Below are positions 14,328 through 35,080 of a DNA stretch of 64,000 nucleotides, piece after piece. Source of the DNA: Chitinispirillaceae bacterium. GTDB taxonomy: Bacteria; Fibrobacterota; Chitinivibrionia; Chitinivibrionales; Chitinispirillaceae. Numbering within the stretch: position 1 is the first letter of the stretch; each line of letters begins with the position of its first letter. The position numbers and the translations under genes were made by a program. The DNA lies in assembly GCA_016932075.1 (NCBI GenBank), contig JAFGDP010000061.1, forward strand, positions 1 through 64,000, given 5' to 3'. The notes beneath the pieces were generated by a model. It was not told the DNA's origin. It worked only from the letters and a program-made list of their open reading frames with translations, and made no database searches.

Positions 14328-15998
14328 TCAGCCGCCGTTGACCACGACGAGCGTTGCGGTGTAAACCGACGCGCCCGACGTGACCCGGACAAGGTATGAT
14401 CCGGCCGAGATGTTTTTCGTATCGAGAACAAGCTCATGCGTGCCCTGCGCCAGTAGTCCGGCGTCACGATGGAACACCGCAGTCCCCTGACAATCATAAA
14501 TGGTGACGGACACCCGCTGGGGCAGTCCAAGGGCCAGCGTTAGTCGCGCGCTTCCTGCCGCAGCGTGCAGCGAGACCCTTTTCGTTATCGAGAGGACCGG
14601 ACTCACTATGGTCGAAGAACCGGAAATAAAGTTCGCCGTGACCGTCTTTTCGTTATTCATAGTGATCGTGGTCGACAGGCTGCTGCCGGTCGCGCTGTCG
14701 CTCCACCGGTCAAGCCTAAAGCCGCTCGCCGGAACCGCGGTCAGGGTCACGGTCGAGCCTGAATCATGGAACATCTCCCCGGTAGGGTTGGTCACGCTCC
14801 CCCGCCCTGCAGTCGTGATGGTGAGACGAAATTTCCGTTTGGAGAGTTCCATTGCCGAGGCTGCCATGAGTACACCGCAGTATCCGTGAGGATGAACCGC
14901 CGGCGGGCAATTGACCTTTGCCTGGCTTACATATCCGGAATAGTCGTTCTGGATGCCCATACCTCCGACAAATTGATTGATAACCGGCAGATTCTGGTTA
15001 TCACGCGTAATTTTAGTTTTTACTCCGTCCCATCCCTTTTCTGCAACCGCCAGATAGCTGTTATCGAGAAATCCGCAATCAACAGCGGTCTTGAGCGCGT
15101 AAACGAACATTCCGCTCCCGGATGATTCCAGCCAGTTATCCGAAGCGCTCCCCTTGTCCATGACCTGATACCAGAGTCCGGTGGCGGGATCCTGCGTGTT
15201 TTTTATCCCTTCTGCTATATTGACAAGCAGGGCGGCCATTTCGTCATAGGAAGCATGGTCTTTGGGAAAATATTTCAGCATTTCCACCATGGCCATGGCA
15301 AACCACCCCATGGCACGGCACCATATTTCCGGAGAACATCCGTTTGCCGGGTCTGCCCATGACGCCTCTTTGCTTGCATCCCATCCATGGACCAGCAGCT
15401 TTTTGGAAGCAACATACGCATGTGACGACAGCAGAAGCGTCTGGAACGCCGCCATGCTGTCGCAATACGCCTTTTCGCCGATCCGGTAGCCGTATTTCAC
15501 GAAAAACGGCAGTGCCATATACACACCGTCGCACCACATCTGGTTCGGATACCGTTCTTTATGCCAGAATCCGCCGGAAGCATTGGTCGGCTGTCTTTTC
15601 ATAAGACTGAACAGCCTGTCAGCCGCGAGCTTGTATTTCTGCTGTCCGGTTTCCTGAAACAAAAACAGGCAGACGATGGCCGGATGCAGTTTATCAAGGC
15701 TTTGCGCCGTGGAATCGAAGCTGATGTTGCCGCTTGCGTTCACGAACTGGTCCACGTATTTCTTGATATAGGCAAGGTAATCGGCGTCGTTTGTATAGGC
15801 ATAGGTCCGCTCAATTCCCTGAAGAACAATGCCGTTTGAATACTCCCATCCCTTATTGGTCATGTCATTGATGGAATTAGGCCATCGCTGGATTATTGCA
15901 TCGGAAAAATCAACTGCCCATGAGGTTGGTGATACCGTTACAGAGGAATGCGAGATGCATACCAGTGCGATTACCGGCACCAATATTTTAAGGTTCAT
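14328..15998 (-). CDS. Secreted GH105 unsaturated galacturonyl hydrolase
   Basis: A 556-residue exported enzyme. GH105 removes the unsaturated uronate from oligosaccharides made by pectate or rhamnogalacturonan lyases. Following the signal peptide (about 1-19), the (alpha/alpha)6 domain spans about 25-390, with HKERYPNQMWCDGVYMALPF holding the catalytic Asp157. Next comes an InlB B-repeat-like module (about 392-460: TITTAGRGSVTNPTGEMFHD, GFRLDRWSDSATG, KTVTANF). A sorting-type C-terminus follows (VSVTIYDCQGTAVF ... GSYLVRVTSG). Secretion is notable because many GH105 enzymes are cytoplasmic. It ends a unit with the GH31 and porin-like genes, 30 bp behind the latter. Confidence 0.9.
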   Translation of the reverse strand: MNLKILVPVIALVCISHSSVTVSPTSWAVDFSDAIIQRWPNSINDMTNKGWEYSNGIVLQGIERTYAYTNDADYLAYIKKYVDQFVNASGNISFDSTAQSLDKLHPAIVCLFLFQETGQQKYKLAADRLFSLMKRQPTNASGGFWHKERYPNQMWCDGVYMALPFFVKYGYRIGEKAYCDSMAAFQTLLLSSHAYVASKKLLVHGWDASKEASWADPANGCSPEIWCRAMGWFAMAMVEMLKYFPKDHASYDEMAALLVNIAEGIKNTQDPATGLWYQVMDKGSASDNWLESSGSGMFVYALKTAVDCGFLDNSYLAVAEKGWDGVKTKITRDNQNLPVINQFVGGMGIQNDYSGYVSQAKVNCPPAVHPHGYCGVLMAASAMELSKRKFRLTITTAGRGSVTNPTGEMFHDSGSTVTLTAVPASGFRLDRWSDSATGSSLSTTITMNNEKTVTANFISGSSTIVSPVLSITKRVSLHAAAGSARLTLALGLPQRVSVTIYDCQGTAVFHRDAGLLAQGTHELVLDTKNISAGSYLVRVTSGASVYTATLVVVNGG

Positions 15999-20257: not shown

Positions 20258-21130
20258 ATGACAAATCTACAAGTATATAAAAAGAGTTCTACCCTCTCGG
20301 TCATTGACTGGCGCGACCGTCGCGCGGACGAACGGCTCTGGATGCTCACCAAATCGGGGCTCAAGCCCGGCGTCCTCATTGTCCGCCATGCTGGCAATTC
20401 CATCTGGCGAAAGGGCGCGCAAATCCAGCGGAACAATTCCGACCTGTTCGGCATCGAGCTTGTTACCTCAGGCGACCTTCGATTCGTCCAGAACGGCAAG
20501 GAATATATCGTCGAGCCGGGAAATATTTTCATCAAGAAACGCGGAGGCAACCATCTTTACGAACCAGGTCCGGCTGGATTCGTGCATAAGAGGTTTATCA
20601 GGCTCGACGGACCGATCATCGAAACCATCACGGGCGAGCTTGGCATAGACCAGATCGATGTATGCCGCCTGTCGCACCCGCACCGGTTCGCCACGATGCA
20701 AAAAAGGGCGATCATGCTTACCAGGGACCAGCCAGAAGGGTATGTGATGCGCCTCTCGCTCCTTGCGCTTGAAATCCTTCTCTTTCTTGCTCAGGACGTG
20801 ACGGGTTCACGTTACCCTGCCGCGCTCTATGCCTCGATCGACTATCTGCGCCGTAACCTTCACCGGAAAATAGCGATTTCCGATCTGTCGCGAAATGTCG
20901 GCATCAGCGACACGCAGCTGTTCCGGCTCTTCAAGACACACCTTAAGGAATCCCCCCTTGCCTACTTCAACAACATGAAAATCAAACGGGCCGGCGAACT
21001 GCTCAGGCATACGCTTATCCCCCTCAAGGAGATCGCCTTCAGCCTCGGCTACGAAGAACCTGCGTATTTTACCAATCAGTTCAGGAAAGCAATGGGAATA
21101 TCACCGCGAGAATACCGTAAAAAGGCGTAA
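20258..21130 (+). CDS. AraC-family transcriptional regulator, candidate pectin regulator
   Basis: A 290-residue regulator with an N-terminal cupin-like sensing domain (about 30-150: NSDLFGIELVTSGDLRFVQNGKE and VEPGNIFIKKRGGNHLYEPG) and a C-terminal double helix-turn-helix (about 190-290: KIAISDLSRNVGISDTQLFR, LKEIAFSLGYEEPAYFTNQF, GISPREYRKK). The ribosome binding site is weak (AGCAGG). It is divergent from the GH31 unit and its promoter copy B, and its end lies 3 bp from the convergent end of the catabolic operon. This position makes it the best candidate to bind the four shared promoter elements. The inducer is probably a uronate, but that is inference. Confidence 0.92.
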   Translation: MTNLQVYKKSSTLSVIDWRDRRADERLWMLTKSGLKPGVLIVRHAGNSIWRKGAQIQRNNSDLFGIELVTSGDLRFVQNGKEYIVEPGNIFIKKRGGNHLYEPGPAGFVHKRFIRLDGPIIETITGELGIDQIDVCRLSHPHRFATMQKRAIMLTRDQPEGYVMRLSLLALEILLFLAQDVTGSRYPAALYASIDYLRRNLHRKIAISDLSRNVGISDTQLFRLFKTHLKESPLAYFNNMKIKRAGELLRHTLIPLKEIAFSLGYEEPAYFTNQFRKAMGISPREYRKKA

Positions 21131-21133
21131 GGC

Positions 21134-22405
21134 TCAGCGGGAGACGCCCTTCCATGCCCACAACCCCGTACCTGGATTGGAAATAAAGAAAATTTCCTCG
21201 CCGTCGTTCATTCTGTTGGGCCCTTCCGCCAGACTGGACGGATCGTATCGTGTGAGCAGCTCGTCAACTGGTGCGTACTGGAACCCTACGGAAGCGACCT
21301 CCCCGGCGCTCAATCCTCCCGCGCAGTAGGTGATGGAAAAACGTCCCTCTGACGATCCGTGCATCAAGTGGGCGGCGGCGCACAGGTTGTTCCTCAACGC
21401 ATCGTCATCCTTGACCGCCTGCAAGACGGCTTGAGTGCCGCGGTAGCCATGCGCGCGAATGAGCCGGTCAATCTCCGCATCCTCCCCGAAGGTCTTTATG
21501 CCTGGCGCAATGATAACAAGCTCGCCGCCGTCGGCGATGGCCATGCGGGTACGGTAGATCGCCTTGTTGCCAAGCCAAGTGCTCTTATACTCGCATGGAT
21601 CAAGATAGACGACGACCTTTGAAGGACGATGGTCAAGAAGGGATATATTTACCCGCTGCGACAGCCGGGCGGCACGCAGGAAACACTCCCGGTCATTTCC
21701 GATAAACAGGCCCCGCGTTGCCAGCGATCCGTCCTTATTCTGTCCGACCACCGTCATCGCGTGCACCAGGGGAAGCGGCGCGAGAAACATGTCCGCGATA
21801 TAATTGAGAACGTTGCTGACCGGCGAATCGATATGCCCCATGATACGTTCCATGCCGTAAACAGCGCCGAGGAAATGGGTCCTATGGATGTTTTCCGCGC
21901 CGCCGAGGCCGACAACAATATTCTTGCTGTGCCCCGCCATGCCCGCGACCTCATGCGGAACGACCTGACTTAATGAGAGGATGCAATCAAACGACCGGTC
22001 CAGAAGCATCTTGTTGATTGCGACGGGAATGCGGCAGTCGACGGCTCCCCCGGAAACATCCTTGATATATGTCGCAGGAACCTCGCCCAGCGGCACGCAA
22101 TCGGTACGCCAGCGGTGTTCAAAAAAAAGACGGGCCGGAACCGGGCCGAACATCGTCGTTACTTCGGGGCCGGACATGGCCGCGTGCGTGCCGAGTGCGG
22201 GCAGTATCGCTGCCACCGCATCGGGGTTCCGCTCATATGCAAAGCGTGCCAGGACGCCTGCGCGCGAATGAAGCCGCGTGATATCAGGCGGAACGATCAG
22301 AATTTTTTTGGCGGCACCGATTCGATCAAGCGCGGTATCGAGCCCAACACGCAGATCGTCATCAGTCATCGCGCATTCCGGTCCACCGTGTTCGAAAAAA
22401 AGCAT
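21134..22405 (-). CDS. LarA-superfamily nickel-dependent hydroxyacid racemase/epimerase
   Basis: A 423-residue protein of the DUF2088/LarA superfamily, which racemises or epimerises 2-hydroxyacids using a nickel-pincer (NPN) cofactor. Key residues fit: DITR (Arg44; LarA Arg75), GTH (His74; His108), and His151, Lys161, His177, whose spacing of 10 and 26 equals that of LarA His174, Lys184 and His200. It is the last gene of the galacturonate operon, 12 bp after the PfkB kinase. Some members of the superfamily are reported to epimerise gluconate at C2, which would link mannonate and gluconate. That substrate is inference. The start is uncertain: Met13 is an alternative and no strong ribosome site is seen. 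Confidence 0.82.
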   Translation of the reverse strand: MLFFEHGGPECAMTDDDLRVGLDTALDRIGAAKKILIVPPDITRLHSRAGVLARFAYERNPDAVAAILPALGTHAAMSGPEVTTMFGPVPARLFFEHRWRTDCVPLGEVPATYIKDVSGGAVDCRIPVAINKMLLDRSFDCILSLSQVVPHEVAGMAGHSKNIVVGLGGAENIHRTHFLGAVYGMERIMGHIDSPVSNVLNYIADMFLAPLPLVHAMTVVGQNKDGSLATRGLFIGNDRECFLRAARLSQRVNISLLDHRPSKVVVYLDPCEYKSTWLGNKAIYRTRMAIADGGELVIIAPGIKTFGEDAEIDRLIRAHGYRGTQAVLQAVKDDDALRNNLCAAAHLMHGSSEGRFSITYCAGGLSAGEVASVGFQYAPVDELLTRYDPSSLAEGPNRMNDGEEIFFISNPGTGLWAWKGVSR

Positions 22406-22417
22406 GGTACAACAGCC

Positions 22418-23500
22418 CTATCGCTGGATACGCGCGGACCCGCCGTAGGCAAACGCACGCACCTGCTCAAGGGTCGCCATGGTAGTATCGCCGGGAAACG
22501 TGGTAAGCAGTGCGCCGTGAGCCCATCCGAGCTTGACCGCATGTTCAGGATCTTCATTGGTTAAGAGGCCGTAAAAGAAACCTGACGCAAATCCGTCACC
22601 ACCGCCGACGCGGTCGTAAATAACCAATTCGCATGTGGGCGAAACATAGGTTGTTCCGTCGACCCAGGCAACCGCTCCCCAGGAATGGTGGCTGGCGGAA
22701 TGCACTTCACGAAGCGTGGTGGCAACTACTTTAACCTGCGGATGTTTTTTCACAACGCCGTCGATCATGGCGCAGAACAGGCCCGGATCAAGCGTTGATT
22801 TCTTCTCAACATCCGGCCCGGGGATGCCAAGCCCTTTCTGGAGATCTTCCTCGTTGCCGACCAGCACATCCACCTGTCTTACGATTTCGTCAATGACCGC
22901 GTGCGCACGTTTCTGCCCGCCCCAGATATCCCACAGTTTCTGCCGGAAATTCAAATCGAACGAAACGACTGCCCCCGCTTTTTTTGCCGCCTTCATGCCT
23001 TCGATGATCACCCGCCCGGTCGTTTCAGAAAGTGCTGCGAAAATGCCGCCGCTGTGGAACCAGCGGACGCCCCCGGAAAAAATCGCCTGCCAGTCAATAT
23101 CACCCGGTTTCAGTTGGGCGGCGGCTTCATTCGATCGGTTGTAAAACACCACGGGCGCGCGGGAACCCCACCCGCGGTCGCTGTATACCGTGGCCATGTT
23201 GGGCCCGTTTACGCCGTTATGCTCGAACCGTTTGTAAAACGGCGTGACGCCCATGGCGCGCACCCGCTCGGCGATCATGTCACCGATGGGATAATCGACC
23301 ATCGCGGAAACAATACCGGTTTTCATGCCGAAGCAGTTCGCCAGATTGGCGGCACAGTTGAATTCTCCTCCGCTCACATGAACGTCGCATCTGGTTGCCT
23401 TGCGGAAAGGAATGGTGCCGGGGTCCAACCGGTGGACAAGAGCGCCAAGCGAAACGAAATCGAACGATCCTTTTTCTGCGATATCCAATCCGTACTTCAC
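22418..23500 (-). CDS. PfkB-family sugar (acid) kinase
   Basis: A 360-residue ribokinase-fold kinase. VSGGEFNCAANLANCFG near residues 43-59 is the substrate-side PfkB pattern. VSFDLNFRQKLWD and VGNEEDLQKGLG are mid-domain signatures, and YDRVGGGDGFASGFFYG near residues 300-316 contains the anion hole and catalytic Asp. The GGGD form is typical of the 2-keto-3-deoxygluconate kinase branch, so KDG is the default substrate. However, the operon lacks a mannonate dehydratase and carries 6-phosphogluconate dehydrogenase, so gluconate is an open alternative. It is fifth from the end of its operon counting from gnd, between SDR and LarA-type genes. Confidence 0.8.
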   Translation of the reverse strand: MKYGLDIAEKGSFDFVSLGALVHRLDPGTIPFRKATRCDVHVSGGEFNCAANLANCFGMKTGIVSAMVDYPIGDMIAERVRAMGVTPFYKRFEHNGVNGPNMATVYSDRGWGSRAPVVFYNRSNEAAAQLKPGDIDWQAIFSGGVRWFHSGGIFAALSETTGRVIIEGMKAAKKAGAVVSFDLNFRQKLWDIWGGQKRAHAVIDEIVRQVDVLVGNEEDLQKGLGIPGPDVEKKSTLDPGLFCAMIDGVVKKHPQVKVVATTLREVHSASHHSWGAVAWVDGTTYVSPTCELVIYDRVGGGDGFASGFFYGLLTNEDPEHAVKLGWAHGALLTTFPGDTTMATLEQVRAFAYGGSARIQR

Positions 23501-23546
23501 GGCTCAATCCTCCTTAGCGTTCGTAGTACCATATGACAATAACGCA

Positions 23547-24398
23547 TTACACTCCTGCGAAAACATTGAATCCGCCGTCCACCGGAAGAACGGTTCCGGT
23601 AACAAAACGGGACATGTCGGAAACAAGGTACAGCAGCGTCCCCTCCAGCTCCCCGGGCGTGCCGAACCGTTTCATCGGCGTTGCCTCGATGATTTTTTTC
23701 CCGCGGTTGCTGAGTTCACCGGTCTTTTGATCATACAGAAGGTACCGGTTCTGATCAGTGACGAGGAATCCGGGCGCCATGGCGTTTACGCGAATGTTCT
23801 GCGGTGCGAAATGAACCGCCAGCCACTGTGTTAAATTGTTGATTGACGCCTTTGCCGCAGAGTAGGCCGGAATTTTCGTGAGCGGACGGTATGAATTCAT
23901 CGACGAGATGTTGAGTATGACGCCCTTTTTGCATGCCACCATGTCCCTCCCAAACACCATTATCGGAAGCAGGGTACCGGTAAAATTAAGGTCAAACACC
24001 TGGCGAAATGCGTCAAGCTCAAGTCCGAAAAACGTCTGATCAAGATGTTCGCGAAACGCTTCTTCGATTGTTTCGGCAGCGGTCGTCGCTTTGGCAGAAT
24101 TACCCCCCGCGGCATTGATAAGGATGTCCACCGAACCCAGGCGATCGTTTACCGTCCGTTTCGCCTCGTCGAGAGATTTTTTATCAAGGACGTCGGCCCT
24201 GATGCCGATCACCGTACCGCCGGTCGCTGCGGCGATCTCTTCCGCCTTTTCGACCGCACGCCCTTCCTTGCGGCTCAGGATCGCCGTCACAACGCCGTTG
24301 CGGGCCAGGCACGCGACCAATGAGGAGCCGATGCCGCCGGTCCCTCCGGTTATCACGCATTTCTTATCCTTGAGATCCCCCAAAACAGGATACGCCAT
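23547..24398 (-). CDS. SDR oxidoreductase, probable fructuronate reductase (mannonate forming)
   Basis: A 283-residue short-chain dehydrogenase. It has the Rossmann motif TGGTGGIG (near residues 17-24), NAAGG, the catalytic Ser in ISSMNS and YSAAK (Tyr and Lys), and ends GGFNVFAGV. That ending is characteristic of the SDR-type D-mannonate oxidoreductases found in uronate operons that lack classical UxuB. It would reduce fructuronate to mannonate with NAD(P)H. The ATG at 24398 is chosen because GGAGGGG stands 8-10 nt ahead; the frame is open 14 codons upstream into the uxaC end. The position between uxaC and the kinase supports the role. Confidence 0.8.
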   Translation of the reverse strand: MAYPVLGDLKDKKCVITGGTGGIGSSLVACLARNGVVTAILSRKEGRAVEKAEEIAAATGGTVIGIRADVLDKKSLDEAKRTVNDRLGSVDILINAAGGNSAKATTAAETIEEAFREHLDQTFFGLELDAFRQVFDLNFTGTLLPIMVFGRDMVACKKGVILNISSMNSYRPLTKIPAYSAAKASINNLTQWLAVHFAPQNIRVNAMAPGFLVTDQNRYLLYDQKTGELSNRGKKIIEATPMKRFGTPGELEGTLLYLVSDMSRFVTGTVLPVDGGFNVFAGV

Positions 24399-24436
24399 AT
24401 TTCTCCACCCCTCCTGTTCGGCCTGCACGGCAGCAC

Positions 24437-25852
24437 TCAATAGCCGAAATAGGCCTTTGCATTGTTGTAACAGACGTCCTTGACGATTCCGCCGATCGTA
24501 TTGAAATCATCTGGCAGATCGCCATGCTCCATCTCGTTGCCCAGAATATCGCATAAAAAACGACGGAAATATTCATGCCGCGGGAAGGAGAGCAGCGACC
24601 GGGAATCCGTCGTCATGCCGATGAAACGGCCGAGCACCCCAAGACCGGAAAGAGCTTCAATTTGACGGGTGATGCCGTCTTTCTGGTCGAGGAACCACCA
24701 CGGGGGGCCGAATTGGATCTTGCCGGGGACCGACCCGTCCTGGAACGCGCCCATGATGCTCACCAGCATCTCGTTGTGACCGGGAAATCCGTTAAACAGA
24801 ATCGTTTTCGCGAGTCTTCCGGCCGAGTCAAGCCGGTCAAGAAACAAGCAGAGCTGCCGGGCCTGAAGCATGTCGCCGATGCAGTCAACACCGGTGTCCG
24901 GTCCAAGGAGCCTGAATATCGAGCTTCTGACATTGCGGATGATGCCGAAATGGAACTGCTGCGCCCATCCGCGCTTTTGGTTCATGGCGCAGAGTTCGGA
25001 TAAAATCGTTGTCTTGAATCGGGCCGCCTCGTTCACGGACACCTGTTTTCCCGAACGCACCCTAGACAGGAGCGTATCCATTTCGCGGTCGGTGAACACA
25101 TCGGAAGCAAGCGCCTCAAAGGCGTGGTCGGAGCTTCGGCAGCCGCGCTTATGGAAAAACCGGTGACGCCTGTCGAGCGCTTCGAGCAGCGTGTCGAAGG
25201 AGGATATCGTCATGCCGGAGGCTTTTTCAAGAGCCTCGATATATCGATTGTATACCGACGGATCATCGATGGAGGTCGCTTTATCGGGCCGCCAGGTAGG
25301 CAGTACCCTGACGCCGAATTTTTCCCGATCGAGCTGCTCATGCCACGAAAGATCATCGGTCGGATCGTCGGTGGTGCACAGGATTCTGACGTTCATGCGA
25401 AGGAGCAGGTTCCTCGGTGAAAACGACCGGTCTTTCAACCGTTCATTGCATTCGGCATAGATCCCGGAAGCGGTTTTCTCCGAAAGCAGCGTGTCGATAC
25501 CGAAATATCGTTTCAGTTCCAGGTGGGTCCAGTCGTAGAGCGGATTACGCACCGCGGCCGGCAGGGTACGCGCCCACGCACGGAATTTTTCCTCGTCGGG
25601 AACGGTGCCGGTAATGCATTCCTCGCTCACTCCGTTGGTGCGCATTATTCGCCATTTGTAATGGTCGCCCTTGAGCCATGCCTCGGTGATGCTGCCGAAC
25701 AGTTCGTTTTGTGCAATCCGCTCCGGTGAAAGATGACAATGATAATCAAGGACGGGCATCTGCTCAGCGCATTCATGATAGAGCCTGGAAGCCGCCTTCG
25801 TATGCAAAAGAAAATCATCTGACAAGTAAGCCATTCGCGTATTCCGTTTCAT
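24437..25852 (-). CDS. uxaC: Uronate isomerase UxaC
   Basis: A 471-residue amidohydrolase-fold isomerase of normal family length. It converts D-galacturonate to D-tagaturonate (and glucuronate to fructuronate) in the cytoplasm. The metal-binding pair is in VLDYHCHLSP (His38, His40). Other family stretches are LLRMNVRILCTTDDPTDDL, KQVSVNEAARFKTTI, NGFPGHNEMLVSIMG, FGPPWWFLDQKDG and GMTTDSRSLLSFPRHEYFRR. Met7 is an alternative start. It follows gnd by 48 bp and precedes the SDR gene in the same operon. It is the first catabolic step after uptake. Confidence 0.95.
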   Translation of the reverse strand: MKRNTRMAYLSDDFLLHTKAASRLYHECAEQMPVLDYHCHLSPERIAQNELFGSITEAWLKGDHYKWRIMRTNGVSEECITGTVPDEEKFRAWARTLPAAVRNPLYDWTHLELKRYFGIDTLLSEKTASGIYAECNERLKDRSFSPRNLLLRMNVRILCTTDDPTDDLSWHEQLDREKFGVRVLPTWRPDKATSIDDPSVYNRYIEALEKASGMTISSFDTLLEALDRRHRFFHKRGCRSSDHAFEALASDVFTDREMDTLLSRVRSGKQVSVNEAARFKTTILSELCAMNQKRGWAQQFHFGIIRNVRSSIFRLLGPDTGVDCIGDMLQARQLCLFLDRLDSAGRLAKTILFNGFPGHNEMLVSIMGAFQDGSVPGKIQFGPPWWFLDQKDGITRQIEALSGLGVLGRFIGMTTDSRSLLSFPRHEYFRRFLCDILGNEMEHGDLPDDFNTIGGIVKDVCYNNAKAYFGY

Positions 25853-25900
25853 GATGAAGATAGTGCTCCCCGCCCGCTTGGGAGGAGCCGTTTGGCCGCA

Positions 25901-27355
25901 TTACACCGTGTAACTCCCCGAGGCGACATCGCCTCCCCTCCCGGTCCAGTTCGAATGAAAAATCTGGTCTTTCGGCTTATCGATTCGTCGATAGGTATGC
26001 GCTCCGAAATAGTCACGCTGCGCCTGCAGGAGATTGGCCGGGAGCACGGCGCTCCGATACCCGTCGTAGAAAGCAAGTGCGGAGGAAAATGCCGGCACCG
26101 GTATGCCAAGAAGCGCCGCCTGCGATACGACATTCCGCCACGACGATTGGCACCGGTCAATAACCGATTTGAAATAATCATCGAGCAGAAGGTTGCCGAG
26201 GTCACGATTCTTCGCAAAGGCGTTTTTAATGTCTTCAAGGAATACGCTCCTGATAATGCACCCGCTTCTCCACAACATGGCGATATTGCCGTAATCCAGG
26301 TTCCAGCCATACTCTTTGGCGGCCTCGCGCAGGCACATGAAACCCTGCGCGTAGGAAACGATCTTTGAGGCGAGCAGCGCCTGCCGTACCTCATCGACAA
26401 ACCTCTGTTTATCTCCAGTAAACGTATTCTCAGGACCTGACAATCTTTTCGACGCCAGGACCCGCTCGTCTTTGATCGCCGACAAACAGCGGGCGTATAC
26501 CGCCTCGGCGATGAGCGTTACCGGGACGCCCAAATCCAGCGAATTGACGCTGAACCATTTTCCGGTGCCCTTTTGGCCCGCCTGGTCCAGGATCTTTTCA
26601 ACAAGGGGCGATCCATCGTCGTCTTTGAACGCCAGTATTTCAGCGGTTATTTCAATGAGATAGCTGTTGAGCTCGGTTTCGTTCCATTGGGCGAATATTC
26701 GGTGCATAGCATCGCATGAGAGCCCCATTCCGCGCGCCAGAAGATGGTATGCCTCGCAGATGATCTGCATGTCCCCGTATTCGATCGCGTTGTGCGCCAT
26801 TTTGACATAATGGCCAGCGCCATTGTCACCCACCCAGTCACAGCACGGCGTGCCGTCCGGCGTCTTCGCTGCTATTGCGCGGAGAATATCCTTTACAAGA
26901 GGCCATGCTTTCGAGCTGCCGCCCGGCATGATGGAAGGCCCCCTGCGGGCGCCCTCCTCCCCGCCCGAAACACCGGTACCAATATAGAAAAGCCCCTTAT
27001 CCCCAAGATATCGTGTCCGTCGAATCGTATCGGTGAAATGGGAATTCCCTCCGTCTATTATGCAATCGCCGGAAGAACAGTAAGGAACAATCTGTTCTAT
27101 CGTATCATCCACGGCCTTTCCCGCCTTGACCATAAGCATGATTTTGCGTGGCGATTTTAAAAGGCCCATCATCTCTTCAATGGAATGCGCACCGATTACG
27201 TTTGTTCCCTTTGCGGCCTGGTTGAGGAATTCATCGACCTTGGAAAGCGTCCTGTTAAAAGCAACGACCGCGTACCCATGGTCATTCATATTCAAGATAA
27301 GGTTCTGACCCATGACGGCAAGCCCGATTACCGCGATATCTCCTTTTTGATGCAT
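25901..27355 (-). CDS. gnd: 6-phosphogluconate dehydrogenase (decarboxylating)
   Basis: A 484-residue long-form enzyme that converts 6-phosphogluconate to ribulose 5-phosphate and CO2 with NAD(P)+. GLAVMGQNLILNM is the dinucleotide site, SGGEEGARRGPSIMPGG the substrate loop, and GAGHYVKMAHNAIEYGDMQ carries the catalytic Lys and His-Asn. AQRDYFGAHTYRRID is the C-terminal tail that reaches the partner subunit. The ATG at 27355 has GGGAGG 9 nt ahead. Finding gnd inside a galacturonate operon, between the TRAP genes and uxaC, is unusual. It suggests that gluconate 6-phosphate is formed from uronate or that the operon also handles gluconate. Confidence 0.95.
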   Translation of the reverse strand: MHQKGDIAVIGLAVMGQNLILNMNDHGYAVVAFNRTLSKVDEFLNQAAKGTNVIGAHSIEEMMGLLKSPRKIMLMVKAGKAVDDTIEQIVPYCSSGDCIIDGGNSHFTDTIRRTRYLGDKGLFYIGTGVSGGEEGARRGPSIMPGGSSKAWPLVKDILRAIAAKTPDGTPCCDWVGDNGAGHYVKMAHNAIEYGDMQIICEAYHLLARGMGLSCDAMHRIFAQWNETELNSYLIEITAEILAFKDDDGSPLVEKILDQAGQKGTGKWFSVNSLDLGVPVTLIAEAVYARCLSAIKDERVLASKRLSGPENTFTGDKQRFVDEVRQALLASKIVSYAQGFMCLREAAKEYGWNLDYGNIAMLWRSGCIIRSVFLEDIKNAFAKNRDLGNLLLDDYFKSVIDRCQSSWRNVVSQAALLGIPVPAFSSALAFYDGYRSAVLPANLLQAQRDYFGAHTYRRIDKPKDQIFHSNWTGRGGDVASGSYTV

Positions 27356-27390
27356 ACCGGAAAACCTCCCTTTTGCAAAGAATCCCACGT

Positions 27391-28683
27391 TTATTTAAAT
27401 CCGAACAGTCCGGGAACGAACATCGATACCGCCGGAATATAGGTAATCAACATGAGCGCCGCGATCATGGCGATAAAAAAAGGAATAAGCGACGGCGTCA
27501 CTTTGGCAATGGTTGTCTTGCCGATACCGCAGCCGACGAACAGGGCCGTTCCCACGGGCGGCGTGCACAGTCCGATACACAGGTTGGCAATCAACAATAC
27601 CCCGAAATGAATCGGGTTGATGCCGAGAGCGGTGACTACCGGCAGCAGTATCGGGGTGAAGATCAGTATTGCCGGCGTCATGTCCATGAAGGTGCCGACG
27701 ATCAGCAGTATGGTATTAATGATCAGCATAATGACGATGGTATTGTCCGATACCGCCAAAAGCGCGGTGCTTATCGTCTGGGGAATGTTCTCATACGCCA
27801 GTATCCATGACATCGCGGTCGAGGTCGCGATGAGCAGCATGACGACCGCGGTCGTTATCCCGGTATCGAGCAGGATTTTGGGGATATCCCGCGGTTTGAC
27901 CTCGCGGTACACAATCACGGAAAGAATAAACGCATATACCACGGCGATTGCCGCCGCTTCGGTTGCGGTGAAAATGCCGCCGATGATACCGCCCATGACA
28001 ATAAAAACGAGGAGAAGGCTTAAAAACGCGCGCTTGAACCGTATCATGACTTCCTTGAAGCCGGTCCGCTCCCCCCCTCCGTACCGGCGTTTCACCGAAA
28101 TGATGCCGCATACGGTCATGATGCACAACCCCACAAGTATTCCCGGCAAAATGCCGGCAAGAAATATCGCCGCTATGGAAACGCTTCCCGCAGCCAGCGA
28201 ATAGACGATCATGGCATTGCTCGGCGGTATCAGGAGCCCGGTGGTCGCCGCGGTGACGGTCACTGAAACGTTGAAGTGCTGATCGTATTTTTTCCTGTTC
28301 ATTTCCGGCATCATGAAACCGCCGATGGCGGATACGGCCGCGACCGCCGACCCGGAAATGCTGCCGAACATCATGCAGGTAAGCACATTAACATACGATA
28401 GACCGCCGGGGAGCCAACCGACGAGCGCTCCGGCGAAATCTATGAGCCGTCGCGCGATGCCTCCCCTGCCCATGAGGAGCCCGGAAAGAATAAAAAAGGG
28501 AATGGCAAGCAGGGCGAACGTATCGATGCCGGTGGCCATTTTCTGCGCGATGATGGTCAATGCCGGAATATTGCCAATGGAGAGAATGGTCAGCAGGGTG
28601 GCGATACCGATCGCAAAGGCGATAGGCACATTCATGACAAGAAGGACGACGAAACCTGCCCCTAGTACGAAAACAGGACTCAT
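27391..28683 (-). CDS. TRAP transporter large permease (DctM type)
   Basis: A 430-residue membrane protein with about 12 helices and the DctM pattern (FALLAIPFFILSGLLMGRGG, GSISGSAVAAVSAIGGFMMP, NAMIVYSLAAGS, TPPVGTALFVGCGI). With the small permease and the binding protein it forms a sodium-driven importer for organic acids, here most likely uronates. The start ATG at 28683 overlaps the stop of the small permease gene (ATGA), implying translational coupling; the frame is open 8 codons further. It is followed after 35 bp by gnd. Confidence 0.95.
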   Translation of the reverse strand: MSPVFVLGAGFVVLLVMNVPIAFAIGIATLLTILSIGNIPALTIIAQKMATGIDTFALLAIPFFILSGLLMGRGGIARRLIDFAGALVGWLPGGLSYVNVLTCMMFGSISGSAVAAVSAIGGFMMPEMNRKKYDQHFNVSVTVTAATTGLLIPPSNAMIVYSLAAGSVSIAAIFLAGILPGILVGLCIMTVCGIISVKRRYGGGERTGFKEVMIRFKRAFLSLLLVFIVMGGIIGGIFTATEAAAIAVVYAFILSVIVYREVKPRDIPKILLDTGITTAVVMLLIATSTAMSWILAYENIPQTISTALLAVSDNTIVIMLIINTILLIVGTFMDMTPAILIFTPILLPVVTALGINPIHFGVLLIANLCIGLCTPPVGTALFVGCGIGKTTIAKVTPSLIPFFIAMIAALMLITYIPAVSMFVPGLFGFK

Positions 28684-29186
28684 ACCTGCGCTCTTTCCCT
28701 TTTCCACAATTTCGTGATCGCGTTGCTGAAAAAAAGCGCAGAGTAAAAGGCAATAAAAAAACCGCTGATGGGCAGGCAGAGATACACGTACCCCATCTTC
28801 CAGTTGAGCGCCGGGGAGACCTGGTTGGTAGAAAGGGTCGTTTGGACCAGCTCGATGCCGCCTATGATCATGACGGCGACGGTAAACACGCCCACTATCA
28901 GGTATACGATCAGCTCAACAGCGATCTGTACGCGGAAGGAAAGTTTTAAAACGAAAAAATCAACGCCGAGGTGCGCTTTCCGGTTGACCGCGACCGCGGC
29001 GCCCAGGAGCCCGACCCACATGAGAAGAAAGGTCGAAAACTCTTCGGTCCAGGAGCTGGGATTGTTCAGGACAAACCGTGTGACGATCTGCCAGACCACG
29101 TCGACGACGAGAACGCCGAGCGATACCATGGTCAGCAGCTCCAGCGACTTGTCAAGTATTGTTTTTACGCGATGCAGGATATTCAT
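28680..29186 (-). CDS. TRAP transporter small permease (DctQ type)
   Basis: A 168-residue protein with four membrane helices (about 15-35, 48-68, 90-112, 132-155) and the DctQ signature ending the second helix (WTEEFSTFLLMWVGLLGAAVAV followed by RKAHLGVDF). It links the binding protein to the large permease. It starts 10 bp after the dctP stop and its stop overlaps the next start by ATGA, so all three transporter genes form one unit. Confidence 0.93.
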   Translation of the reverse strand: MNILHRVKTILDKSLELLTMVSLGVLVVDVVWQIVTRFVLNNPSSWTEEFSTFLLMWVGLLGAAVAVNRKAHLGVDFFVLKLSFRVQIAVELIVYLIVGVFTVAVMIIGGIELVQTTLSTNQVSPALNWKMGYVYLCLPISGFFIAFYSALFFSNAITKLWKRERAQV

Positions 29187-29196
29187 ATTCGCGTTA

Positions 29197-30186
29197 TTAC
29201 TTCAGCGACTGTATCTGGTCTATCAGCGCTCCGGTCTCGGTGCCGTCGTACTGCTTGTACATGGGCATGACTTTTTCTCGGAACGGTTTTTTATCGGGCC
29301 TGTTGATAGTGACGCCCGCAGCCTCCACGGCCGAAAGAGAATGTGCGGTCTTCTCCTTCCACAGCTTTCTCTGATACACCGATGACGAATCGGCGGCATT
29401 CTGCAGGATCGTCTTGATATCATCGGAAAGCTTGTTCCACCATTTCGTGCTGATCAGAAGAACGTCCGGAGGGCCGGCGTGTTCGTCGAGAGAATAGTAC
29501 TTGCAGGTCTCGTAATGCTTCGAGGTCTCAAAACTGGGCGGATTGTTCTCCGCCCCGTCCACCATTCCCTGCGCGAGCGAGGTGTACAGCTCACCCCAGT
29601 CAATCGGCGTGGGCGATGCGCCAAGCGCCTCAATGGTCGCCATGGAGGTTTTTGATTTCTGGACTCTTATCTTTTTCCCTTTCAGGTCTTCGGGCGTGTT
29701 GACGGGATTGTCGCGCATGTAAAAACTGCGGAATCCGGCATCATAATAGCACAGCCCCTTGAGCCCCTTTTCTTCACCTTTGCGGAGTATACCCTTGCCG
29801 ATATCACCGAGAAACACCTTCCAGGCATGCTCTTCATCCCTGAACAGATAGGGGACGCTGAACACGCTCATAGACGGAATGAAGCTTTCAAGCGGCGAGG
29901 ACGATGTCTTTGTCATGGCGACGCTGCCCAACTGGAGTTGCTCAATGATCTCCCGTTCGCTGCCGAGCTGTTCACTCGGGTAGATATCGATCCTGACCCT
30001 GCCCTTGGAATCCTCAAAAACGAGTCGTGCCATGTGCTCCATGGCCTTGTGCACCGGATGCGTGACATCCAGGCCGTGTCCGAGCTTGAGTACTATGGTT
30101 TTATCCTTGCTGCCGCACCCTCCGATCGCCAGGAGGGCAAACAGCATATACGAGACCCGTTTCAGTAACACTTTGCTAAAAACCAT
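29197..30186 (-). CDS. TRAP transporter substrate-binding lipoprotein (DctP type)
   Basis: A 329-residue binding protein anchored by a lipobox (LLAIGGC, Cys24) in place of the free periplasmic form. The DctP core includes GHGLDVTHPVHKAMEHMA, YPSEQLGSEREIIEQLQ, FRSFYMRDNPVNTPEDLKGK (with the Arg that usually pairs with the substrate carboxylate), KIRVQKS, and WGELYTSLAQGMVDGAENN. The context of uxaC and the epimerase suggests galacturonate or a related uronate as ligand. It begins 116 bp after the epimerase stop, the widest gap in the operon, with AGGGG 8 nt ahead of the ATG. Confidence 0.93.
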   Translation of the reverse strand: MVFSKVLLKRVSYMLFALLAIGGCGSKDKTIVLKLGHGLDVTHPVHKAMEHMARLVFEDSKGRVRIDIYPSEQLGSEREIIEQLQLGSVAMTKTSSSPLESFIPSMSVFSVPYLFRDEEHAWKVFLGDIGKGILRKGEEKGLKGLCYYDAGFRSFYMRDNPVNTPEDLKGKKIRVQKSKTSMATIEALGASPTPIDWGELYTSLAQGMVDGAENNPPSFETSKHYETCKYYSLDEHAGPPDVLLISTKWWNKLSDDIKTILQNAADSSSVYQRKLWKEKTAHSLSAVEAAGVTINRPDKKPFREKVMPMYKQYDGTETGALIDQIQSLK

Positions 30187-30302
30187 CTTTCATTCCCCTG
30201 ACTATGAAAACATGATTATGCGTATGACCAATTTCAAGGGCATCTGGATCTGACGAGAGCCTGCCTGACGCAGCAAGAACAATCCTTGTCCGGGAAACGA
30301 TG

Positions 30303-32264
30303 TCACGCTATATCTGCAAGGAGGTCCTGGTATTGCTTGAATGCTGCAAGTTTTTTGCGTGCCTTCGCAACGGAGTCAGCGCTTGCCATCCCAGTTGTTT
30401 CAGCCAGAAAAAGAATATACTTGGCGACGCCCCGGGCATACAGCAATCGTGCCTGATCCGAAATCCCATAAAACCTTGCCCGCTGTGCATATCCCTCAAT
30501 CGAATGATCCCCCAGGCGTTCAATACTGCCGTGCGCCGCCAGGATAAAGAGGAAATTATACTCGAACCAGAAGACATGGTCCGGCGACGGTTTGAGCGAA
30601 TCGAGCACCTGCCTGAGGTCATCGGGTGAGGCGAACACCCCATCCGCCGTTATGCCTTCGGCCGCAAGCGTTGCAGTAATGAATTCACGCGCAAAACACT
30701 TCGGCGTTTCGTCCGGTGAAAATGCGCTTGTAACGACAAGCTCTTTACCGAATGCATACCAATCCATCCACAGCTTCCGGTCAGCAGGATCGCTGGAACG
30801 AGATAAAGCAACACCCATCTCATAGGTGTAACGGCCGGATGTTTTTATTTCAAAGTTTCCGCCTGTTTCTGATCCGATTATCCGGTAATCCTCCTCGGAT
30901 TTGCCGCTCCCGGAATGAAATCCGATGGACACCTCGAATTTCTTCGCGACAGCGAATAAGGACTGTATTTTTTTCCGCAGTCCCGACGCGTCACCATAGG
31001 GGCAGTTTTTCTGAAATCCTATATTGGGAGCGATAAAATCGAATTTCATCCCAAGCGCATCGGCCATAGCCAGACAGACAGCTAACGTTTCCGGCGAGGT
31101 CTCCCCGGACAGCTCATCGATTGACAGCTCGCGCAAATACCTTCTCCCTGCCTCGGAATGGAACATCGCCGCCCGCAACTCCATATGCCGCTGGTCACGA
31201 CGTTTCAGCTTTTGCATTGCGGGCATAAGATAGGTCACCATCTTTTTAAGATACGGTTCCGGTATCAGCAATCCATGCGAGGTTATTTTTTCCCTTACGA
31301 CTTCATAGAATGCACGATCAACCTTTTTTTTGAACACCAATTCCAGAGCATCCGGGTCATCAACAGGTTCATGTAACGCCAGTTCCGGACTCAGATCATA
31401 CGTGATGTATGAAGCAAACAGGCTTCCTTCCACGAGTTCGGATTCGATCGCATCGAATCGCCCGCCGATGGGCTGGTGGTCGGCGTTAAATCCCCACGGA
31501 ATATCCTTATGGTGGAATCCGTGTTTGAGCATGGTAATAATTGATGCGTGCGACATACCCCTCATCGACTGTCCCTGGTGCCCTTCGGGAACCGAACCGC
31601 CGATAAAAGGGAACGGCACCTGTTCCAGCGATTTTTCGAGAAGCGCATTGACATCATACACCAGTTCGCGCGGTACGGAATTCTGGTTTGCCGTAAGCGG
31701 AAGTCCCAATTCCTTCATGACCCATGCAACCGCGGGCCAGTGCAAGGTCGTAAACCGCGCCCCGATGCCGAGGCTGGTGCGTTTCAGCCGTTCATCGGCT
31801 CTTGGAAATATGGTGCTGCCGGGATCGCGCGCAACCAATGCTTTTTTCAACAGCACAAGATTGTTCCAGTATAACGGTACGGCTTTCAACGCGGGAGTTA
31901 TATCGGTCGTCCCCTCAAAGCGCGGGATATCGGACGCGCCGGTCACCAGCGCACAATCGCCGCTCCTGGTTGATTCAACGACGAACAGAACCGCGCTGCC
32001 GATTGAAAAATAGGACTTTGGCCATACCATAACCTGCCGCATGAGCGGCGCAGGTTTTCCGGATGAGGCCATAGCGATCGCCGCGGACACGCCGTCGGCT
32101 TCCTGAATCAGCTCTTTGACAAGAGAAGGAAAATCAAGTGTCAGGTCAGGAGAAATGGCAGGATTATTTTTTATAAGCAGCCTGTTTTTTACCAGGAACT
32201 TGTTTATCGCGGACACGCTTGCAACAGGCCCATGAGGAAGCGGATCAACCAGCGTTGTCGACAA
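30303..32264 (-). CDS. uxaE: Tagaturonate epimerase (UxaE-like), long form
   Basis: A 653-residue cytoplasmic protein with no signal peptide. It carries metal-site-like stretches seen in UxaE-type tagaturonate/fructuronate 3-epimerases: GFNADHQPIGGRFDAIES, DFIAPNIGFQKNCPYG and GFHSGSGKSEEDY. The family converts tagaturonate to fructuronate, bridging UxaC to the mannonate branch. It is considerably longer than the ~480 residues I expect for Thermotoga UxaE, with an extended N-terminal third. The start is TTG with AAAGG 8 nt upstream. It leads the catabolic operon behind promoter copy C. The family call is from motif memory, so moderately sure. Confidence 0.72.
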   Translation of the reverse strand: MSTTLVDPLPHGPVASVSAINKFLVKNRLLIKNNPAISPDLTLDFPSLVKELIQEADGVSAAIAMASSGKPAPLMRQVMVWPKSYFSIGSAVLFVVESTRSGDCALVTGASDIPRFEGTTDITPALKAVPLYWNNLVLLKKALVARDPGSTIFPRADERLKRTSLGIGARFTTLHWPAVAWVMKELGLPLTANQNSVPRELVYDVNALLEKSLEQVPFPFIGGSVPEGHQGQSMRGMSHASIITMLKHGFHHKDIPWGFNADHQPIGGRFDAIESELVEGSLFASYITYDLSPELALHEPVDDPDALELVFKKKVDRAFYEVVREKITSHGLLIPEPYLKKMVTYLMPAMQKLKRRDQRHMELRAAMFHSEAGRRYLRELSIDELSGETSPETLAVCLAMADALGMKFDFIAPNIGFQKNCPYGDASGLRKKIQSLFAVAKKFEVSIGFHSGSGKSEEDYRIIGSETGGNFEIKTSGRYTYEMGVALSRSSDPADRKLWMDWYAFGKELVVTSAFSPDETPKCFAREFITATLAAEGITADGVFASPDDLRQVLDSLKPSPDHVFWFEYNFLFILAAHGSIERLGDHSIEGYAQRARFYGISDQARLLYARGVAKYILFLAETTGMASADSVAKARKKLAAFKQYQDLLADIA

Positions 32265-32590: not shown

Positions 32591-35080
32591 CTAGGGCGCC
32601 ATGATTTTCACTCTTCCGGCAATTTCTCCCTTTACATCTACTTGTACAATACTGGCCCCGCGCGAAAGTGACAGGGCGACAGGAGTAACCACGCCGTGAT
32701 TGAGCGTGACGGTCTGTTTTACGATGATTCTTCCCGCCAGATCAAAAACAGAAATCGTGGCTTTGCCGTTTTTTCCTGTTCCGGCAATTGACGGCACCAG
32801 GAGCATTGTGCCGCGGGCGGTCTGCCGTATCTTGATAAGTCCCTGGGCGCGTAGTGCCCGTGAGGTGCCGATTACCTTCTGCGGCGTTGCTTCAATAGTG
32901 ACATTGACCGGCGTGTTGGCGGCGAACGGTATCACCAGTTTTTTTACGGTCGCATCGTACTGAGGATCAGCGACAACCGTTGTATCAACGCGTACACTGA
33001 TAGGCGCGTCCCACAGCCGTACCGCAACCGTGCAGGGAACAGTCAATGCCGGCGACGTAATTGATATATCATAGTCAGGAGAAACCGAGACTTTCATCTC
33101 CTTATGGCGGTTACTGTCCAGATAATCGACATAGGTGAATGTCGCGCTGTCCCCCGCAAATCCGGGGAAGGCATTGATCACGATGTTGCGCTTGCTGTCA
33201 AAATCAGCATCCCATTTCTTTTCCAGGCCGGCGAACACCTTTCCCGTGGGATAGATTGAATTAACCTTGATATATACCGGGATCTGGTCCAAGGTTATGG
33301 CCGGAGAGGTTATCATGGCCCCGCCGAACTGCTGATCAGCCCAATTATGCGCATAGATCCACCTGCCGGCGGGGAGATACAACTGCCTCGTAGTAGCTGC
33401 AGACGCAATCGGCGCCACGAGCATTGCCGGGCCGAACATATACTCATCGACGATGGAAATCGTCTGTGGATCGTGCGGGTACTCGCCCACGAGCGGCATC
33501 ATGGTGACGCCATTTTCCGCGGAAGTATTTAGTATAGAATAAATATACGGCAACAGCGTAAACCGCTGGTAAAAAATGTTCCGTACATGTTCCTGATTGG
33601 TAGCGTTTAATTTCCACGGCTCCTTTCCGTCAAGCATAAGCTCCATAAAACCGGAATACACGCCAAAAAGCAGCCAGCGGCAGTAATTTTCAATACTCGG
33701 CATGGCTTTCTGCGTATAGCCGCAGATATCGCTCCCCCACATGGGGAATGCAAGGATGCCTGCCCGGAACGCGTTGCCAAGACTTGTTACCATCCCTGCC
33801 CAGTCGGCATACGTATCGCCGTTCCATATTGCGCTCGTGTACTGCTGGCAGCCCGCCACGGCGCAGCGCGGGAAAAGAAAGCAATTATCGCCAAGCCCTG
33901 CATCGACCCGCAGGAACTCCTCTGATATTTTGCAGTTCAGATACGCATACTTCTTGTGGCGTTCGGCCGCGGGCGTACCGTCCTTGAACGCGGGGAGATC
34001 ACCCGATGCCCATCCATTGTCAACGCGGTCGAGCTTGTGGCCTTTGATTCCGTACGGATACTGACCGGTCTTCAGTTTATTGCGGTACCAGTCAACCTGT
34101 GCCGGGTCAGTCAGATCAAGATACTGGTTGGGAGAAGAGGTGAATGCGCCTGCCGGCGGCGTCCCGTCGAATACTCCCGGCATAATCCATGTGACAAGAT
34201 TCACATAGTATTGGTCTGAAAGCGTTTTAATCCACGTACCCGGGTTGCCGAAATTCCCTTCAAAATTCATATTTGACCATCCCTGGGCACCGTTATTGTA
34301 TGGCCGGTCGAGCCAGATCGTGGAATACGGAATTTTAATCTGGGTGAATTGTTCCGCATGATCAAGGATCATGGCGCTTCCCGTATAGTTATCATGCCAT
34401 ACCAAAGGACCGCACGCCCACATGGGGACCTTGAGGGGAGCCCCGATAATTTTGTAATACGATTTCTGGATCTTTGAAAGCTGCGGCCCGTAGAAAAGAT
34501 ACCAGTTGATAACCGACGTGTTATAGGTTATCGTCGTCGCTCCCGACACACCGAACGTGTAGGCGCCATAGGCAAAACCGTCAAAATACCCCGCATATCC
34601 AAGTGTCGTGAAATAAAAACCCGAATAGATCTCGGCATCCTCATCCGACCGCTGGTAGGCGGTTATTTTATCGAGCACATTAGATCGCCCCCGCAAATCA
34701 GGATTCGTGGCAATATTATGCTCCGTGATCCCGTAGAAATGCTCGCCATGGTCTTTCAAGGTCAACATGACGGTGGTAACCGACGGATTCGTCGATTTGA
34801 AACGGATGCCGCCGTCAACGCCGGTGATAGTCACCAAAGCGCTTGACGACAGGGTGAGCGTAAATGACGTGTCAGTCTCCGCTACCGACGAAACGGCAGT
34901 ATACTTTACGGTTCCGAAGGTGAAAGCGGTAATATTTGCCAGGGTAGTGCCACCAGCCGAAACATTGATGTCCATCGGTGAACTTGTCACGTCAACCGTA
35001 ATCTCGCCGGAAGTCCAGCCGTATATGAGGCAGGACATGACGAGCAACAGGCTGAAAACCTTTCTTGCAGACTTCTGCAT
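32591..35080 (-). CDS. Secreted GH31 alpha-glycosidase, copy 2
   Basis: An 829-residue paralogue of the enzyme at 17440-19932, near-identical over long catalytic stretches (NYTGSAMILDHA, YSTIWLDRPYNNG, KLDR-x-DNGW, IWNGDTYADW). It has a signal peptide, an N-terminal beta domain, and a GH31 barrel with the K-x-D nucleophile and GDTYADW acid/base. C-terminal beta modules and a sorting-type end follow (ATISVFDLAGRIIVKQTV ... GRVKIMAP). Divergence is strongest in the C-terminal ~150 residues and in the signal peptide. GGAGGGG lies 4-5 nt before the ATG. It is third in the unit driven by promoter copy D, after two DUF5018 lipoproteins. The substrate is unknown. Confidence 0.9.
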   Translation of the reverse strand: MQKSARKVFSLLLVMSCLIYGWTSGEITVDVTSSPMDINVSAGGTTLANITAFTFGTVKYTAVSSVAETDTSFTLTLSSSALVTITGVDGGIRFKSTNPSVTTVMLTLKDHGEHFYGITEHNIATNPDLRGRSNVLDKITAYQRSDEDAEIYSGFYFTTLGYAGYFDGFAYGAYTFGVSGATTITYNTSVINWYLFYGPQLSKIQKSYYKIIGAPLKVPMWACGPLVWHDNYTGSAMILDHAEQFTQIKIPYSTIWLDRPYNNGAQGWSNMNFEGNFGNPGTWIKTLSDQYYVNLVTWIMPGVFDGTPPAGAFTSSPNQYLDLTDPAQVDWYRNKLKTGQYPYGIKGHKLDRVDNGWASGDLPAFKDGTPAAERHKKYAYLNCKISEEFLRVDAGLGDNCFLFPRCAVAGCQQYTSAIWNGDTYADWAGMVTSLGNAFRAGILAFPMWGSDICGYTQKAMPSIENYCRWLLFGVYSGFMELMLDGKEPWKLNATNQEHVRNIFYQRFTLLPYIYSILNTSAENGVTMMPLVGEYPHDPQTISIVDEYMFGPAMLVAPIASAATTRQLYLPAGRWIYAHNWADQQFGGAMITSPAITLDQIPVYIKVNSIYPTGKVFAGLEKKWDADFDSKRNIVINAFPGFAGDSATFTYVDYLDSNRHKEMKVSVSPDYDISITSPALTVPCTVAVRLWDAPISVRVDTTVVADPQYDATVKKLVIPFAANTPVNVTIEATPQKVIGTSRALRAQGLIKIRQTARGTMLLVPSIAGTGKNGKATISVFDLAGRIIVKQTVTLNHGVVTPVALSLSRGASIVQVDVKGEIAGRVKIMAP

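Follow-up and report, generated by a model that had tools for sequence, protein, structure and literature searches.

The closest described counterparts of the predicted operon investigated in this study, which resides in a stretch of 64,000 nucleotides from a Chitinispirillaceae bacterium (positions 1 to 64,000 of contig JAFGDP010000061.1, GenBank assembly GCA_016932075.1, in the following termed the window), are found in Thermotoga maritima and Lactobacillus suebicus. For T. maritima, a route leading from mannonate via gluconate and 6-phosphogluconate to ribulose 5-phosphate was proposed (Rodionova 2012, as described in PMC7583248 and PMC6978723), and its UxaR locus follows the order aldH-pelB-gnd-uxaRED-gntEK (Rodionova 2012, as cited in PMC3750489). 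The D-gluconate 2-epimerase GntE2 of this organism, a member of group 20 of the LarA proteins, and GntE1 of Corynebacterium glutamicum, which belongs to group 19, were both described to convert mannonate to gluconate (Desguin, PMC7583248), and a 2024 paper adds one eukaryotic GntE (PMC11770544). Extracts of galacturonate-grown L. suebicus were reported to phosphorylate mannonate before its epimerisation, with mannonate alone yielding no gluconate and the responsible genes left unidentified in that account (PMC6978723). Since it had been put forward for T. maritima before and the epimerase of that organism was assayed, the route itself is not new. Judged by its genes, the operon described here very probably represents a version of the T. 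maritima route from galacturonate to the pentose phosphate pathway in which the kinase is exchanged and LarA belongs to a different group.

A predicted galacturonate operon and its relation to known routes

The nine genes are all located on the minus strand between positions 21134 and 32264 and are separated by gaps of -28 to 116 bases, as in an operon, which is predicted from this layout. Their content is as listed in an earlier note on this DNA, all named genes being found by family scans at the positions given below. We consider it likely that the gene products would degrade galacturonate (and glucuronate) by a pathway ending in the pentose phosphate pathway. This reading builds on the protein families, on conserved residues, on gene order, on a conserved neighbourhood and on searches of four relatives that detected neither the mannonate dehydratase UxuA nor the 2-keto-3-deoxy-6-phosphogluconate aldolase Eda, all of them properties read from sequence, from which we infer all substrates as well as which of epimerase and kinase acts first.

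In the proposed pathway, a uronate would be imported by a tripartite ATP-independent periplasmic (TRAP) transporter, which consists of the solute-binding protein DctP (29197..30186; PF03480, 294 bits; TIGR00787 above cut-off), whose substrate is presumably galacturonate or a related uronate, the small permease DctQ (28680..29186; PF04290, 106 bits) and the large permease DctM (27391..28707; TIGR00786, 444 bits). The glucuronate/galacturonate isomerase UxaC (24437..25852; PF02614, 637 bits; PRK02925, 574 bits at a cut-off of 387) would convert galacturonate to tagaturonate, or glucuronate to fructuronate, a UxaE-like protein would turn tagaturonate into fructuronate, and a short-chain dehydrogenase/reductase (SDR) of the D-mannonate oxidoreductase type (23547..24440; NF006132, 366 bits, cut-off 281) would reduce fructuronate to D-mannonate. 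A LarA protein of group 18 would invert carbon 2, a kinase of the PfkB family would phosphorylate carbon 6, and the decarboxylating 6-phosphogluconate dehydrogenase Gnd (25901..27388; TIGR00873, 738 bits, cut-off 427) would oxidise and decarboxylate the resulting 6-phosphogluconate to ribulose 5-phosphate and CO2, thereby recovering the NAD(P)H used by the SDR.

Like the UxaR locus of T. maritima, the operon is embedded in a pectin context and clusters gnd and a uxaE-type gene with genes for a fructuronate reductase and for a GntE of the LarA type. The two differ in their kinase, which is GntK in T. maritima and a PfkB protein here, and in their LarA proteins, which belong to groups 20 and 18, respectively. 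Moreover, uxaC is under another regulator in T. maritima, where kdgAK-uxuBA is also present, whereas it is part of the operon in our case, which is further distinguished by a longer and divergent UxaE-like protein and by import via a TRAP transporter. With L. suebicus, the proposed pathway shares the redox-neutral conversion of galacturonate via mannonate and 6-phosphogluconate to ribulose 5-phosphate described in PMC6978723.

Among the nine genes, the UxaE-like protein of 653 residues (30303..32264) is the one assigned with the least support. It has no NCBIfam match, and its match to PF16257 (47 bits, cut-off 27.1) is partial, covering 237 residues and positions 132-359 of the 475 of the profile, which counts against the proposed route at this step. 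The UxaE structures 6ilb and 9kcs align by sequence with residues 368-484, and in a profile comparison UxaE-type structures cover positions 268-527 of 640. Its homologues, considering the best 120 of 2157, comprise 119 proteins besides itself that are 52-71% identical and mostly 635-665 residues long. Together, these features suggest that the protein probably epimerises tagaturonate to fructuronate and belongs to a long, divergent subfamily.

The group-18 LarA and its neighbourhood

The LarA protein of the operon (21134..22405) scores 582 bits against NF052594, the family of the 'nickel-dependent putative hexonate epimerase' (cut-off 500). Its best named relatives are from Chitinispirillaceae and its sole match in the PDB is 4nar, the GntE2 of T. 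maritima (PMC7583248). Residues that bind the nickel-pincer nucleotide cofactor (NPN) were described as R75, K184 and H200 in LarA and as R41, K164 and H180 in GntE2 (PMC7583248), and the latter align in 4nar with R44, K161 and H177 of the window protein. The NPN-binding and catalytic positions are invariant across 79 aligned sequences and are the same in further LarA proteins compared. The residues E, V, A and H described as the GntE specificity signature (PMC11770544) are found as E152, V153, A345 and H346, the latter two placed by the 4nar alignment. In its NPN-binding and catalytic residues and in this signature, the protein thus resembles GntE2 and GntE1; unlike these assayed enzymes, it belongs to a separate group, which was placed beside the gluconate 2-epimerases and hypothesised to act on a hexonate (PMC7583248). 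We found no assay of any group-18 LarA in the GntE literature (PMC7583248, PMC11770544), and the main text of PMC11770544 does not mention 'LarAH18', 'group 18' or 'hexonate'. The residues point to a probable NPN-dependent C2-epimerase of mannonate and gluconate.

The genomic surroundings of group-18 LarA proteins were investigated in the best 80 of at least 589 relatives, a set that leans to close relatives as a consequence of this choice. Within 5 kb and on the same strand, the 40 loci with at least 5 kb on either side of LarA contain Gnd in 36 and an SDR in 36 cases, besides PfkB kinases of class B (24), a PdxB-like protein (22) and a LacI protein (20). A kinase of class A, B or D or of a PfkA-like type is found on either strand in 30 of the 40 loci, or in 32 if the KdgK-like class C is counted. 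The four loci without Gnd are L058, L069 and L074 of Acidobacteriota and L075 of Calditrichaceae. Within 8 kb of LarA in all 80 loci, whose contigs often end early, Gnd and SDR were each detected in 62 cases, UxuA in seven and Eda in 11. A point to the contrary is the location of UxuA between the SDR and the LarA-linked kinase in five loci (L027, L029, L031, L037 and L052), where a mixed or dual role is conceivable.

That the LarA protein would act on a different sugar acid, such as an aldarate or altronate, with Gnd providing NADPH or pentoses and the genes forming a loose collection, appears very unlikely to us. It would be in line with the doubts of the discoverers on mannonate as native substrate of group 19 (PMC7583248), with the missing assay of group 18 in the GntE literature, with the four loci devoid of Gnd and with distant LarA proteins of Fibrobacterota that have no Gnd in the regions fetched. 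Yet Gnd and an SDR of the mannonate type are each present in 36 of the 40 loci, which together with the GntE signature points to mannonate and 6-phosphogluconate.

The mentioned distant proteins (L144, L145 and L146) are 44-46% identical to that of the window and located beside SDRs, L145 and L146 also holding a gene that resembles a 2-hydroxyacid dehydrogenase; they probably act on another substrate. Several other genes recur near LarA. A PdxB-like 4-phosphoerythronate dehydrogenase is located nearby in 35 of the 80 loci (for example L009:4028-5167) and stands between LarA and Gnd in 33 of them; since Gnd is inhibited by 4-phosphoerythronate (PMC6449344), we would guess that it may serve in metabolite repair. 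A PfkA-like protein of the PRK14072 type (c12, L051:7808-9088) occupies the place of the kinase in eight of the 80 loci. A HAD-like protein (c11, L051:9106-9999) is found near LarA in 10 of the 80 loci and in five loci of Fibrobacterota (L139-L143). As candidate for a substitute of the kinase, the latter was dropped because it is also present together with PfkB kinases of class B and in loci without any visible kinase.

With respect to the order of the two central steps, we clearly favour an epimerase that acts first, converting mannonate to gluconate, which would then be phosphorylated by the kinase. This preference is based on the activity of GntE proteins on free mannonate, and it is tempered by their high KM for this compound, 17 mM for GntE2 and 120 mM for the second enzyme reported (PMC7583248), and by the order described for L. 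suebicus, which make the reverse sequence the main rival. In this alternative, which we regard as possible but unlikely, the PfkB protein would phosphorylate mannonate at carbon 6, the LarA protein would be a 6-phosphomannonate 2-epimerase, and free gluconate would not be formed. Both activities were measured in extracts of L. suebicus (PMC6978723), and the lack of gluconate formation from mannonate alone in that organism and the KM of GntE2 are consistent with it. Conversely, free mannonate is a substrate of three LarA enzymes from the GntE branch, and none of them is reported in the respective accounts to act on a phosphorylated substrate (PMC7583248, PMC11770544). Moreover, the kinase suspected to act first in L. 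suebicus is a gntK homologue (PMC6978723) and not a PfkB protein as found here.

The PfkB kinase and its partners

The kinase of the operon (22418..23500; PF00294, 62 bits, cut-off 25.8) is, by its class and its neighbours, probably a 6-kinase of a hexonate, either gluconate or mannonate. It shares with KdgK, the 2-keto-3-deoxygluconate (KDG) kinase of the PfkB family, the PfkB fold, a conserved arginine at position 186 and the GGGD motif, which ends at D302 and which we take to be the catalytic motif. It differs from KdgK in that its class groups apart and has LarA and Gnd as usual neighbours and not Eda or KduI. In a tree of 66 PfkB proteins, the window kinase defines class A with 12 rows, next to 39 rows of class B, 13 of class C and two of class D. 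The fork of class A has a support of 87/98, which is below the mark for firm forks of this tree, and the tree contains long branches that meet. Mean identities amount to 78% within class A, and to 33%, 32%, 42% and 19% with respect to class B, class C, class D and the KdgK of Escherichia coli. Five of the 12 rows of class A have a locus and all five are near LarA, as are all 39 rows of class B; class C is KdgK-like by its position near UxaC, Eda or KduI. Two kinase classes coexist in 11 of the 80 loci, and the kinase of class A or B is the one closer to LarA in each of the 11, keeping in mind that these loci were selected on LarA. Eda was mapped in seven of them and class C is closer to it in six, the exception being L029, where class C adjoins KduI.

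A search centred on the kinase, and thus not selected on LarA, was positive in 4 of 167 genomes of Fibrobacterota and in 17 of 395 genomes drawn from another phylum. Regions of 13.4 to 19.9 kb were examined for 18 of these 21 genomes, the other three being those of loci L001, L024 and L029. LarA was found in 15 and Gnd in 15 of the 18 regions, either of them in 16 and both in 14. The LarA proteins of L117 and L119 are about 30% identical to that of the window and have their highest score with NF052594, below its cut-off. The former is GntE2-like, being closest to 4nar (E 6.6e-67), and stands with a class A kinase and Gnd. In L119, a LarA of another group is followed by a DUF4861 protein, the class A kinase, Gnd, a class D kinase and Eda, so that the two kinases flank Gnd and the class D protein adjoins Eda. 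Similarly, class C is located by KduI and its SDR and class A by LarA in L124 and L125. In light of the GntE residues, of Gnd in 36 of 40 LarA loci and of LarA or Gnd in 16 of 18 kinase regions, the exit of mannonate via LarA, kinase and Gnd, as put forward in the earlier note, is the best-supported reading, whichever of the epimerase and the kinase would act first.

Several properties of the kinase weigh against a role in this exit. Neither LarA nor Gnd was found in L112 and L113, both of which lie close to a contig end, and in the 14.5 kb of L113 the class A kinase is paired with KduI and an SDR. In L117, the class A protein is the only PfkB kinase seen, with Eda, KduI and further SDRs nearby. 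The nearest family models of the window kinase are of KDG-kinase types, all of them below cut-off (NF041332, 130 of 440 bits; NF040938, 82 of 400; NF052444, 26 of 400, all equivalogs of KdgK), its closest chain in the PDB is a KDG kinase, and many database names are of the same kind. A comparison of active sites revealed no residue that distinguishes classes A and B from KDG kinases, glutamate 125 being also present in the KdgK of E. coli, and the residues thus do not decide on the substrate. The same holds for the family cut-offs, which do not separate the kinds of kinases since the Eda-linked class D protein of L119 also scores below that of KdgK (209 of 440 bits); in an NCBIfam scan that comprised proteins of classes B and D but none of class C, all of those tested remained below the curated kinase cut-offs. 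The gluconokinase model TIGR01313 (GntK) is absent from the 15 families matched by the window kinase, and a gluconokinase of the PfkB family is not described in the literature that we found.

These features would suit an ordinary KDG kinase for unsaturated uronates, with LarA and Gnd being served by a kinase encoded elsewhere in the genome, an explanation that we deem improbable. Besides the names, nearest families and closest structure of the kinase, it could draw on the arrangement in L113 and on the many pectate lyases and the GH88 enzyme of the window cluster. However, there are loci in which kinases of classes C and D adjoin Eda, KduI or UxaC and those of classes A or B adjoin LarA. Moreover, Eda and UxuA were not found in Fibrobacterota with a class A kinase, nor KduI and Eda in the window, as detailed below, and we thus retain the assignment as a candidate hexonate kinase.

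Carrier genomes, surroundings of the operon and implications

UxuA, Eda and KduI have no match in the window in tblastn searches at 1e-5 and were also not seen among its 40 proteins scanned with Pfam, in agreement with the earlier note, which had found mannonate dehydratase and Eda missing from it. The genome check for the two enzymes that was proposed there had a divided outcome, since neither was found in the four genomes of Fibrobacterota with a class A kinase (G001, G052, G070 and G071), and this does not extend to all carriers. We have searched 50 of the 80 genomes with group-18 LarA and 18 further genomes with class A kinase. Among the 50, UxuA has matches in 25, some of them partial, and GntK (TIGR01313) is above cut-off in two, FGGY-type gluconokinases not being part of the search; UxuA is present in seven of the 18. 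Speaking against the proposed pathway is the presence of Eda in 46 of the 50 genomes and in 15 of the 18. These 15 are all those of the 18 that lie outside Fibrobacterota, and Eda is likewise present in G019 and G022 of the 50, so that the class A genomes searched outside Fibrobacterota do have Eda. The absence at genome level is hence confined to the four relatives and, for the source contig, to the window. The negative result in the four, from a search that did not extend to Edd or to enolase-family mannonate dehydratases, is no proof since these genomes are in many contigs. Within 167 genomes of Fibrobacterota, proteins resembling group-18 LarA were found in 11, including one that is 44% identical (G086), and the kinase in four, all of them among the 11, a co-occurrence with a chance of 1e-5 that is not corrected for kinship.

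With respect to the genes for synthesis of the NPN cofactor, LarC was detected in three of the four Fibrobacterota with class A kinase, and LarB and LarE in G001, to which the search for the latter two was directed among the four. None of LarB, LarC and LarE reaches its cut-off in 21 of the 50 genomes with group-18 LarA (G009, G010, G012, G016, G018, G019, G020, G022, G023, G024, G025, G029, G030, G035, G036, G038, G039, G042, G043, G048 and G050), and the NPN residues are nonetheless kept in the aligned group-18 proteins. LarC has no match either in G403, a genome of 3.3 Mb whose LarA locus is on a contig of 3.3 Mb. Short LarC-like matches with open frames of 268-284 residues are found in G015, G026 and G041, with LarE below and LarB barely above cut-off; G015 additionally has a full-scoring LarE. 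The matches in these three genomes perhaps reflect another set for cofactor synthesis.

The remaining window, as far as scanned, consists to a large part of a pectin cluster with pectate lyases, Pel9A-like beta helices, a pectinesterase, a glycoside hydrolase (GH) of family 88 and two of family 31. The two GH31 enzymes flank the operon (17440-19932, 830 residues; 32591-35080, 829 residues) and are 70% identical to each other. Eight pectate-lyase or beta-helix genes succeed each other on the minus strand between 37693 and 48721; the called frames of three adjacent pairs run into each other by 82-178 bases, an indication of wrongly assigned start codons. The GH88 gene is located at 14328-15998, and its product and the pectate lyases are expected to release unsaturated uronates, for which neither KduI nor Eda was found in the window. 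A regulator of the AraC family (20258-21130, plus strand; PF12833, PF02311), convergent with the operon, is by its location a possible regulator of the cluster. Promoter-like sites (8 compared to 9.3) and terminator-like sites (17 compared to 13.9) are about as many as in shuffled sequences.

Collectively, the gene set is found in Bacteroidota, Planctomycetota, Ignavibacteria, Spirochaetes and Fibrobacterota, where PfkB proteins of classes A and B or a PfkA-like protein fill the slot of the kinase. Carboxylicivirga linearis FB218 and Maribellus sp. YY47 are two of its named carriers, both having a class B kinase. The gene set offers a testable substrate for group 18 of the LarA proteins and a candidate for a new PfkB hexonate kinase, a protein often named 'KDG kinase' in databases. 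In the relatives from Fibrobacterota, the pathway may be the sole exit from mannonate. If the kinase were to act before the epimerase, the PfkB protein and the group-18 LarA would be the first genes to be named for the activities described in L. suebicus, and the set would constitute a widespread bacterial module that makes 6-phosphogluconate without free gluconate.

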